Made by a program: the position numbers and the translations under genes. Positions 31,943 to 35,306 of a stretch of 43,509 bases of DNA are shown in pieces. Origin of the DNA: Sharpea porci (GTDB lineage: Bacteria > Bacillota_I > Bacilli_A > Erysipelotrichales > Coprobacillaceae); the NCBI RefSeq assembly GCF_009695655.1, contig NZ_VUNM01000023.1:1-43509 (forward strand), written 5' to 3'. Numbering within the stretch: the first letter of the stretch is position 1; each line of letters starts with the position of its first letter. Under the pieces are notes generated by a model, which was not told the origin of the DNA, ran no database searches, and saw only the letters and a program-made list of their open reading frames with translations.

Positions 31943-32206
31943 CTACTTCACGAGTTTATCAATAATCTTAACCATCTCTTCAATCTTTTCTTCACGGTTT
32001 TCACCTGTTGTTGCTTCATTGACACAATGACGCATATGTTCAGCTAAGATTTCCTTATTGGCTTTATTAAGTAAAGCCTGTGTTGCCATTAACTGTGTTG
32101 AGATATCAATACAATAACGATCATCTTCAATCATTCTTAAAATACCATCTATTTGACCTCTCGCTGTTTTCAAATAGCGTTCAACCTTCTTATGATCTGC
32201 TTGCAT
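31943..32206 (-). CDS. csoR: Copper-sensing repressor CsoR
   Basis: This 87-residue all-helical repressor has the Cu(I) ligands with exact CsoR spacing: Cys32, His57 (24 residues between) and Cys61 (three between). Copper binding releases the repressor from DNA. Unusually for the order, it is last in the operon behind copA; the copA TAA and the csoR ATG overlap by one base (TAATG). Two CsoR-type boxes flank the copA promoter, so the operon is self-regulated. Confidence 0.95.
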   Translation of the reverse strand: MQADHKKVERYLKTARGQIDGILRMIEDDRYCIDISTQLMATQALLNKANKEILAEHMRHCVNEATTGENREEKIEEMVKIIDKLVK

Positions 32207-32436
32207 TAATGAATCCCCTTCACCTTATATCCTGCATCAACAACAGCCTGTGTCAATGCTTCATCACTTACATTACCAGTCAGCTTAACATTTGCCTGAT
32301 GATGATCAAGTGAAACTGTTGCTTCAACACCATCAATATCATTCAATGCCTGACTTACTCTTGACGCACAATGTTCACACATCATCCCTTCAATATCCAT
32401 TGTCTTTTCGTTCTTTTTCTTACCTAAATGAAACAT
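32206..32436 (-). CDS. Putative CopZ-like chaperone from an internal start in copA
   Basis: Within copA, codons for Lys-Glu-Val form AAGGAGGTC (32451-32443), a perfect anti-SD match, and 8 nt after AGGAGG comes an in-frame ATG (32436, Met927 of CopA). The 76-residue product begins MFHLGKKKNEKTMDIEGM and contains one complete HMA domain with CxxC at residues 20-23. That is the size and fold of the soluble copper chaperone CopZ. No separate copZ is visible in the operon. It may also be a relic of a copZ gene fused to copA by loss of a stop. Translation is predicted, not shown. Confidence 0.6.
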   Translation of the reverse strand: MFHLGKKKNEKTMDIEGMMCEHCASRVSQALNDIDGVEATVSLDHHQANVKLTGNVSDEALTQAVVDAGYKVKGIH

Positions 32437-35214
32437 TTTTCTGACCTCCTTGATTTCTCCTGCTTGATAGCCTGCTTTTGCGATAGCTTCTTTGATAACT
32501 TCATAATTGACTTCTTTTTCACATTTAATATAGGCTTTTCCTTCAAATAATGCAACATCAGCACTGACACCATCAATCGCATTTAATGCCTGTCTGACAT
32601 GATTCTCACAATTCTTACAGAACATACCATTCACCTCAACAACAAGATCATAGTCTTTCTCTTGATATTTCTTATGAACAATAATATCCGTTACCTTATA
32701 TCCAGCTTTTTCAACAGCTTCTTGAATCGAAGCATCAGTAACATCATTACTGAAGACTTCTAGATAAGCTTCTCCTGCCTCTAAATTCACTTCTGCCTCA
32801 ACATTCTTAATCGCATTAAGTGCCTCAGCAACACGTTGTTGGCAATGATCACACATCATACCTTCTATTTTCACAATCTTATCACAGTTTGTTTTTGTGA
32901 TTGGAGGTTGTTTGCTTTCTGGCTTTAATGACATCGTTGCTTCATGTTTTTGGCTCTCTTCAACAGCCTCATGATGAGGATGCTTATCTTTAAAGAAACG
33001 TAATCTCAATGCATTTGATACAACAAAGACTGATGAGAAACTCATCGCAAAACTGCCAAGCATTGGGCTAAGCTTCCAGCCAAATGATGGATAGAAAAGT
33101 CCTGCTGCAACAGGTATACAAATCGCATTATAGAAGAGGGCCCAGAATAAGTTTTCTTTGATATTCTTGATTGTTGCTTTAGAAAGATCAAAAGCAACAA
33201 CAAGATCATGTAAGTCATTCTTCATTAAGACTAAATCAGCTGACTCAATCGCAATATCAAGACCACTTGTAAAGGAAACACCAACATCCGCTCTTGTAAG
33301 AGCTGGCGCATCATTAATACCATCACCAATCATGCCAACTATATAGCCTTCATCCTGTAATTCATGAACGATACGTTCTTTATCCTGTGGTAAGACTTCG
33401 GCACGATAATCCATATCAAGCTGGTTGGCAATAGCTTTGGCTGTTCGTTCATTATCGCCTGTTAGCATCATTGTCTTAATGCCTCTTTGATGTAAGTCAG
33501 CAATAAGTTCTTTAGCCCCTGGCTTGATTTCATCCTGTAAAGCCATCACACCGACATACTGATTGTCGATTGCAAAATAGAGCGGTGTCTTGCCCTCACT
33601 GGCATAATCAACATCATTCTCAATCACAATATGGAAATGATCCATCAATTTCTTGTTGCCAGCAAGAACTTGCTTATGATCAACAATCCCTTTAATACCT
33701 TCACCGGCAATTTCTTCATAGCTTGTGACATTCTTTAAGGCAACATCTTGAGCATTCACAATCGCTTTGGCAAGAGGATGGGAACTCATCGCTTCAAGAG
33801 AGATGGCATAAGCTTTGTCTTCTTCATTTTTAAACATGGCATCAGTGACTTCAGGTGTGCCTCTTGTAAGCGTTCCTGTTTTATCGAAGACCATCATATT
33901 AATCTTGCTGGCAGTTTCTAAAGCTTCGGCATTTTTGATTAATAAGCCCATTTTGGCTGCTCTTCCTGTTCCTACCATGATAGCTGTTGGAGTGGCTAAG
34001 CCCAAGGCACAAGGACAGCTGATGACCAGTACGGAGATGGCCATTGTTAAGGCAAAGTGGAAGGACTGCCCTAAGATCAGCCACGCCAATAATGTCACTA
34101 AAGCAATACCAATCACAGCTGGAACAAAGTAACCTGAGATAATATCTGCCAATCTCGCAATAGGTGCCTTTGAATTTCCTGCTTCTTCAACAAGAGCAAT
34201 AATCTGAGAGAGTGTTGACTGGGCATTGGTTTTCATAGTTTCAACAACAATACGACCATTTTGATTTGTCGTTGAACCAATAACCAAGTCCCCAACAGTC
34301 TTATCAACAGGAATGGATTCCCCAGTAATCATCGATTCATCAACACTTGTACTTCCTTCAACAATCTTACCATCTACAGCAATACTTTCACCTGATTTCA
34401 CAACAACAAGATCACCAACCTGAATATCATTGATGCCAACAATCTTTTCTACACCATTATCTAGCACCGTTGCCCGATCAGGGGCTAATTCCATCAAGCT
34501 GTTGATAGCCTCACTCGTACGTTTTTTGCTTCTTGCCTCAAAGTACTTGCCTAATGAAATCAGCGTCAAAATCATTGCTGCTGTTTCAAAATAGAGATCC
34601 ATATGGAAACTATGAGCCAGTTCAAGCTGTCCTCTTCCCATATAGTATGCCATCATATACATCGCATAAAGCGAATAAACAACCGATGCCCCAGAACCTA
34701 TGGCAATCAAGGAATCCATATTAGGTGCTAAATGGAAAAGCGACTTAAAGCCTCCTTTGAAATAATGACCATTGATGAATAATACCGGCAAACAAAGCAA
34801 TAATTCCGTCAACGCAAAGATCATCATATTGTGATGTCCTAAAAAGATTGATGGAATTCCTGGCCAGTTCATCATTGAACCCATTGACAGATAGAAAAGT
34901 GGAATCGTAAAGATGAATGAGGCAATCAAGTCCTGCTTGCGCTTTTTCAAATCTTCATCCTTACGTTTATTTGTTGAAACAATAGCATTCTCCTGCTTTG
35001 TTGCTTGTTGCAGCTTGGCATCATAGCCACCTTTTTGAACAGCAGCGATGATTTCTTGAGGATTTGTCTTTGTTTCATCATATTCGACTTCCATATTTTC
35101 GCTTAACAAGTTGACATTGCAGTCTTTTACGCCATCAACCTTGCGTACACTTTTATCAACATGAGCCTGACATGATGCACATGTCATTCCCATAACATCG
35201 AATTTCTCTTTCAT
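32206..35214 (-). CDS. copA: Copper-exporting P1B-type ATPase with 1+3 HMA domains
   Basis: This 1002-residue CopA exports Cu(I) across the membrane. It has an N-terminal heavy-metal domain (CxxC at 12-15), eight transmembrane helices, the CPC motif in SCPCALGLATP (about residue 400), the phosphorylation motif DKTGTLT (about 443), and GDGINDAPAL in the hinge. After the last helices (about 760) comes a linker, then three more HMA domains with CxxC at 788-791, 866-869 and 946-949. Three C-terminal domains are uncommon; most CopA have them N-terminally. An internal SD and ATG before the last domain could yield a separate chaperone. AGGAGGT lies 7 nt before ATG 35214. Confidence 0.95.
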   Translation of the reverse strand: MKEKFDVMGMTCASCQAHVDKSVRKVDGVKDCNVNLLSENMEVEYDETKTNPQEIIAAVQKGGYDAKLQQATKQENAIVSTNKRKDEDLKKRKQDLIASFIFTIPLFYLSMGSMMNWPGIPSIFLGHHNMMIFALTELLLCLPVLFINGHYFKGGFKSLFHLAPNMDSLIAIGSGASVVYSLYAMYMMAYYMGRGQLELAHSFHMDLYFETAAMILTLISLGKYFEARSKKRTSEAINSLMELAPDRATVLDNGVEKIVGINDIQVGDLVVVKSGESIAVDGKIVEGSTSVDESMITGESIPVDKTVGDLVIGSTTNQNGRIVVETMKTNAQSTLSQIIALVEEAGNSKAPIARLADIISGYFVPAVIGIALVTLLAWLILGQSFHFALTMAISVLVISCPCALGLATPTAIMVGTGRAAKMGLLIKNAEALETASKINMMVFDKTGTLTRGTPEVTDAMFKNEEDKAYAISLEAMSSHPLAKAIVNAQDVALKNVTSYEEIAGEGIKGIVDHKQVLAGNKKLMDHFHIVIENDVDYASEGKTPLYFAIDNQYVGVMALQDEIKPGAKELIADLHQRGIKTMMLTGDNERTAKAIANQLDMDYRAEVLPQDKERIVHELQDEGYIVGMIGDGINDAPALTRADVGVSFTSGLDIAIESADLVLMKNDLHDLVVAFDLSKATIKNIKENLFWALFYNAICIPVAAGLFYPSFGWKLSPMLGSFAMSFSSVFVVSNALRLRFFKDKHPHHEAVEESQKHEATMSLKPESKQPPITKTNCDKIVKIEGMMCDHCQQRVAEALNAIKNVEAEVNLEAGEAYLEVFSNDVTDASIQEAVEKAGYKVTDIIVHKKYQEKDYDLVVEVNGMFCKNCENHVRQALNAIDGVSADVALFEGKAYIKCEKEVNYEVIKEAIAKAGYQAGEIKEVRKMFHLGKKKNEKTMDIEGMMCEHCASRVSQALNDIDGVEATVSLDHHQANVKLTGNVSDEALTQAVVDAGYKVKGIH

Positions 35215-35230
35215 ATAGTATACCTCCTAC

Positions 35231-35306
35231 ACCCCCTATAGGGGTTACATAGTTATTATAGCTTTCCCTGTAATACTTGTCAAGAAATAATACCCCCTAT
35301 GGGTAT
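35231..35306 (-). promoter_or_regulatory. copA-csoR promoter flanked by two CsoR-type operators
   Basis: TTGACA (35283-35278) and TATAAT (35260-35255) are 17 nt apart on the minus strand. Upstream is ATACCCCCTATGGGTAT (35290-35306). Downstream of the likely start is ACCCCCTATAGGGGT (35231-35245). Both fit the CsoR pattern of G/C-tract half-sites around an AT centre. Two sites, one on each side of the promoter, suggest tight repression without copper. Confidence 0.88.

Follow-up and report, generated by a model that had tools for sequence, protein, structure and literature searches.

Can a single gene supply both a copper pump and a free copper chaperone? The question is raised by copA of Sharpea porci, located in a stretch of DNA of 43,509 nucleotides (the window), in which the last HMA domain is preceded by a Shine-Dalgarno (SD) sequence and an in-frame ATG. 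There is a precedent in Escherichia coli, where programmed ribosomal frameshifting in copA yields CopA(Z) (Meydan 2017, Drees 2017; cited in PMC9548414, PMC10187127). The E. coli chaperone corresponds to the N-terminal domain, released by the frameshift and an early stop. Otherwise, the copper chaperone typically has its own gene (PMC10187127). A reading of the window made without database searches (the sequence-only reading) had cited the E. coli case as a precedent for exporter and chaperone from one gene, which held (PMC9548414, PMC10187127), and had proposed internal initiation for the window. Our analysis indicates that this copA is very likely an in-frame copA-copZ fusion that has kept the copZ start, from which a free CopZ-like protein would be made by internal initiation; this is inferred from sequence alone, in the absence of translation data.

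RESULTS

The window copA contains a strong putative internal start

The features of the locus are as follows.

32206..35214, minus strand: copA, encoding a Cu+-type P1B ATPase with a CPC motif, 1002 aa
35020..35202, minus strand: N-terminal HMA of copA
32695..32874, minus strand: first C-terminal HMA of copA; its linker has an ATG without an SD (-0.6 kcal/mol) and serves as an internal control
32464..32643, minus strand: middle C-terminal HMA of copA; its linker lacks a start codon and serves as an internal control
32443..32451, minus strand: internal SD AAGGAGGTC, in the linker ahead of the last HMA
32434..32436, minus strand: internal in-frame ATG, codon 927 of copA (Met927)
32206..32436, minus strand: nested copZ-like ORF, predicted 76-aa HMA protein with MxCxxC (GMMCEHC)
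31943..32206, minus strand: csoR/ricR-type copper-sensing repressor gene, whose ATG overlaps the copA stop (TAATG, 32206)
35255..35283, minus strand: promoter before copA, consensus TTGACA-17-TATAAT

In CopA, the ATPase core is flanked by one HMA domain on its N-terminal side and three on its C-terminal side. It passes the test for a P1B-1 Cu+-exporting ATPase (TIGR01511 605 bits, cut-off 397), with further support from matches to PF00122 (E1-E2 ATPase) and PF00702 (HAD) and from the presence of CPC. The repressor gene matches PF02583 with 98 bits and the RicR model with 64 bits, the latter being under its cut-off of 175. With this CsoR-family gene, the operon meets the test for a CsoR-controlled copper operon, of which the operator part is a prediction only. 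GC-rich inverted elements, ACCCATAGGGGGTAT and ACCCCTATAGGGGGT, flank the copA promoter on both sides (window 35255-35306), and these are probably CsoR operators, again as judged from the sequence. No close copy of the locus was found among plasmid records.

The sequence-only reading had placed AAGGAGGTC (32451-32443) 8 nt ahead of the in-frame ATG at 32436, and this held: (35214-32436)/3 equals 926, which makes the ATG codon 927, and the end of AGGAGG is 8 nt from it. The linker before the last HMA reads GGA GAA ATC AAG GAG GTC AGA AAA ATG TTT; GAG accounts for a minority of the Glu codons here (19%). The computed SD:anti-SD energy at Met927 is -11.6 kcal/mol, the strongest among the 324 internal in-frame ATGs of window ORFs of at least 150 aa. 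All SD energies were calculated with a generic bacterial anti-SD tail (CACCUCCUUU), not taken from the 16S rRNA of this genome. mRNA folding around the internal start is weak (z +1.3). The test for an internal in-frame start, namely an SD and a start codon conserved beyond protein-level need, is met, and initiation itself is inferred. The first C-terminal HMA was also considered as a place for the start and rejected, the ATG there having an SD energy of merely -0.6 kcal/mol.

The predicted nested product is CopZ-like and no stand-alone CopZ was found in the genome

The 76-aa product matches Pfam HMA (PF00403) with 52 bits over residues 12-71, above the cut-off, and resembles solved CopZ chains. 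The feature test for CopZ (approximately 70 aa, one complete HMA fold, MxCxxC) was met on sequence features only. The cut-off of the curated CopZ models was not reached (best, NF047957, 64.6 bits versus 85), nor was it by the nested products of relatives, and we therefore refer to the product as CopZ-like. The claim of a 76-residue product of CopZ size with one complete HMA thus held at the sequence level. The claim that no separate copZ is present also held for this genome at 99% completeness: no stand-alone CopZ was found in it, and four of its seven HMA matches are in CopA. Of the other three, one belongs to a 117-aa protein linked to FeoB, one is a 71-aa HMA encoded next to an ArsR-type gene, and one lies within a P-type ATPase frame of 734 aa.

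The FeoB-linked protein consists of an N-terminal hydrophobic segment and an HMA, and its gene lies between feoB and a gene for a 77-aa Cys-rich protein (L005, 1339-2004). HMA proteins of 120-135 aa occur across many genomes of the family.

The start is conserved within and beyond the order

The linker of the one other genome in the genus reads GGA GAA ATT GTG GAG GTC AAA AGT ATG; three residues ahead of the Met have changed, and GGAGGTCA and the ATG are retained. The comparison was extended to 40 relatives from the family and 60 loci from a second family of the order. Nearly all of these copA genes terminate in one to three fused HMAs, and an SD of the AAGGAG or AGGAGG type stands before the ATG of the last HMA in almost all of them. 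Within the window's family, the SD and a start codon (GTG in one gene, ATG in all others) are kept ahead of the last HMA, or of the last two, in every complete fused copA examined. The nested N-termini of relatives look CopZ-like, for example MKKTIKIEGMMCEHC. In two loci (L106 and L124) the ATG is swapped for GTG and the SD is retained.

A set of 179 distinct fused copA genes with a linker ATG, the presence of which was required, was assembled from Erysipelotrichales, Clostridia, and a few other phyla. An SD core is present 3-12 nt upstream of the ATG in 174 of them, with a mode of 8-9 nt. The encoded 7-residue linker peptide takes 169 different forms in this set, the SD is encoded in all three codon phases, and the bases separating SD and ATG vary among relatives. 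Weak sites also occur: L095 has AAGGAAA, and L183, L203, and L238 have no clear SD.

To look beyond the order, named genomes were scanned, which yielded 80 loci. The pump core was readable in 76 of them; all 76 are fused, and in 73 an ATG at the corresponding position is preceded by an SD of -5.5 kcal/mol or stronger. Carriers include Ruminococcus, Gemmiger, Pseudoflavonifractor, Lachnospiraceae, Eggerthella, Ellagibacter, Spirochaetaceae, and Selenomonadaceae. Two of the carriers, Ruminococcus bromii ATCC 27255 (L198) and Gemmiger formicilis (L252), are culturable. These loci are possibly enriched for the site because the query included the linker, and most loci in this study were retrieved with linker-containing queries, so that a bias toward similar linkers is possible. 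As a check on this bias, a class-wide sample was collected with the pump core alone, and the site was found in 10 of 11 fused copA genes (that of the window counted). Conservation of SD and ATG beyond protein-level need, proposed as a check by the sequence-only reading, is thus seen across the order and into Clostridia and other phyla.

The site exceeds null expectations and is confined to one linker per gene

The mean SD energy at the linker starts is -9.2 kcal/mol, compared with an average of -2.35 kcal/mol for 2304 further in-frame ATGs in these genes. An energy of -8 kcal/mol or better was reached by 82% of the linker starts and by 0.4% of the other in-frame ATGs. Synonymous recoding with local codon usage gave an average of -4.6 kcal/mol (combined p 3e-22; the rows are not independent and no correction for relatedness was made). 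Locus by locus, this test fell below 0.05 in 29 of 87 cases, and p was 0.09 for the window; single genes are often nonsignificant because Lys/Glu-rich linkers yield purines anyway. Shuffled linker codons averaged -2.7 kcal/mol and other positions of the same linkers -2.1 kcal/mol, the threshold of -8 kcal/mol being met by 81% of the sites versus 1.8% of the other linker positions.

In genes with several C-terminal HMAs, the site precedes the last HMA in 12 of 16 rows (two of which are the same locus) and a two-HMA unit in the remaining 4, and none of the other inner linkers in these 16 rows reaches -8 kcal/mol. Since only one linker per gene has it, the site is tied to one terminal chaperone unit and not to HMA linkers in general. 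The internal start lies ahead of an HMA pair in L084, L092, L093, and L100, so that the predicted free product there is a two-domain chaperone.

Split relatives, age of the fusion, and losses of the start

Several sister loci carry copZ as a cistron of its own next to copA, and the copZ SD is then found at the copA 3' end or inside it. In L098 the SD overlaps the copA stop (AAATAGGAGGCAAGAAGATG), in L149 the last copA codons contain it (AAAAAGGAGAAATAGAAATG), and in L254 and L256 the copA end is ATGA. A separate copZ at the corresponding point, which the sequence-only reading had suggested looking for, is thus present in some relatives, often with its SD overlapping the copA stop. Gain or loss of a stop before copZ suffices for the switch between fused and split forms, with the ribosome site unchanged. 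A tree of 207 CopA cores (FastTree, biased sampling) requires at least six fused/split changes, four of them forced by well-supported branches.

The sequence-only reading had offered, as a second possibility, a recent copA-copZ fusion with a retained copZ ribosome site. The fusion is supported; a recent origin was rejected, and the fusion is old, because it is common to nearly every genome of the family and to most copA genes sampled in the order.

Most losses of the start coincide with the presence of another small HMA gene. In G388, the fused HMA has no start, and a separate copZ follows immediately downstream. In genus g57, five species lack the linker Met and the SD, and all five have a free HMA gene of ~57 aa, whereas in the sixth species the start is retained and this gene is absent. 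Within the genus, the ~57-aa gene (L293 2073-2267; L343, L345, L347) is thus found only where CopA has lost the start; it adjoins a purine-nucleoside-phosphorylase-like gene, a neighbor identified by eye. The one clear exception is G393, which has a fused C-terminal HMA and neither a start nor a separate copZ. The condition that the sequence-only reading had set for its own refutation, loss of SD and Met without a separate copZ, was therefore met in this single lineage, whereas the other two start-losing lineages both have a separate small HMA gene.

DISCUSSION

Proposed explanation

We propose that a copZ gene, joined in frame to the pump, makes up the 3' part of copA and has kept its own ribosome-binding site and start codon. 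Initiation at the normal copA ATG would give the long pump, to which the C-terminal HMA domains remain tethered. Ribosome binding at AAGGAGGTC would lead to a start at Met927, so that the same mRNA would also yield a CopZ-like copper chaperone of 76 aa in free form. The nested chaperone would be made in an operon with a copper repressor, and the free domain would pass Cu+ to CopA and/or the repressor.

The sequences show the site and its exceptional strength, its conservation relative to the nulls, its loss mainly in the presence of a further small HMA gene, the fact that only one linker in each gene carries it, and the existence of split relatives with the same site; on this basis they also show selection on the internal start. 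An old fusion in which the copZ start is under selection leads to the prediction of two products, a pump with a tethered chaperone domain and a free chaperone. Initiation at the site, useful amounts of both products, and transfer of Cu+ to CopA or the repressor are inferred from sequence alone. Internal initiation yielding a free CopZ-like protein, as proposed by the sequence-only reading, is hence the best-supported reading, with translation not shown experimentally.

A bolder reading, which we consider likely, is that many gut Bacillota, together with some other phyla, share a widespread nested-gene design that has escaped annotation, in which copZ is hidden as an in-frame internal start in copA. 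There would have been repeated switching between split and fused forms around a constant copZ ribosome site, and both tethered and free chaperone would be made, in a ratio perhaps set by copper-controlled translation of copA.

Alternative explanations

The alternative that survives best, albeit as a very improbable one, is that the site is a fossil copZ start, that only the fused protein matters, and that the C-terminal HMA is an extra regulatory metal-binding domain. In its favor, the split sister loci reveal the origin of the site, and a CopA with a C-terminal HMA can be a regulated pump, as in Archaeoglobus. Against it, the surrounding linker has turned over completely while the site has been maintained throughout the order's genera and in other phyla, GTG has replaced ATG in L106 and L124 without loss of the SD, and most losses of the site are accompanied by a free HMA gene.

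Likewise highly improbable is an action of the SD-like element on elongating ribosomes, either as a pause aiding membrane insertion or domain folding or as a frameshift stimulator. The element is located after the last transmembrane helices, and internal SDs stimulate frameshifting in other genes. However, its spacing to the start codon is fixed as for initiation (mode 8-9 nt), other linker positions score only -2.1 kcal/mol, the SD-ATG interval is variable, and there is no conserved slippery run. In addition, in multi-HMA genes (window, L121, L157, L168) a long distance separates the membrane domain from the site, which precedes the last HMA or pair.

Chance formation of SD-like strings in purine-rich, Lys/Glu-rich linkers is supported by the synonymous-recoding average of -4.6 kcal/mol and is practically ruled out by the shuffled linkers (-2.7 versus -9.2 kcal/mol observed), by the 81% versus 1.8% at the -8 threshold, and by the absence of the site from linkers of non-last HMAs.

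Relation to known systems

The proposed fusion with a retained copZ start shares with E. coli copA that a single mRNA would give an exporter and a free HMA copper chaperone, but here it is the C-terminal domain through internal in-frame initiation, whereas E. coli uses a frameshift. The locus has the same two parts in the same order, along with a copper repressor, as Gram-positive copA-copZ operons; unlike in these, no stop separates the copA and copZ parts, so that each full-length translation includes the chaperone domain. In-frame internal initiation is known in bacteria and phages, as for Cas11b (PMC11899642) and two-product endolysins (PMC9430671), where an internal SD and in-frame start likewise give an N-terminally truncated C-terminal product with a shared stop. 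The present case differs in pairing a metal pump with a soluble chaperone, in its conservation across phyla, and in the interconversion of fused and split forms. Archaeoglobus fulgidus CopA also has a C-terminal metal-binding domain (reference in PMC7558416), similar to the HMA at the C terminus of this Cu+-ATPase; to our knowledge, no internal start has been described for it. We found no report of an internal copZ start in the open-access literature searched, which was restricted to open-licence papers.

If correct, this would be a second, independent route by which one copper gene provides both an exporter and a chaperone; it would rely on the protein end opposite to that used in E. coli and on another decoding event, and many gut bacteria without an annotated copZ could still possess a free chaperone. 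Annotation by the longest ORF would then conceal a conserved protein, and in many gut bacteria the pump genes are annotated as pump only.

Further observations

A second strong SD-like match in the window copA (32625, -9.9 kcal/mol) lies at the Met of the GMFC motif in the middle HMA. A start there would begin within the domain and truncate it, and the match is probably a coincidence. In L258 (G054), the HMA is one base out of frame after the copA core at an A-run (CAAATGAAAAAATTATAAAAGTAG), an offset that may reflect either an assembly indel or a slippage site.
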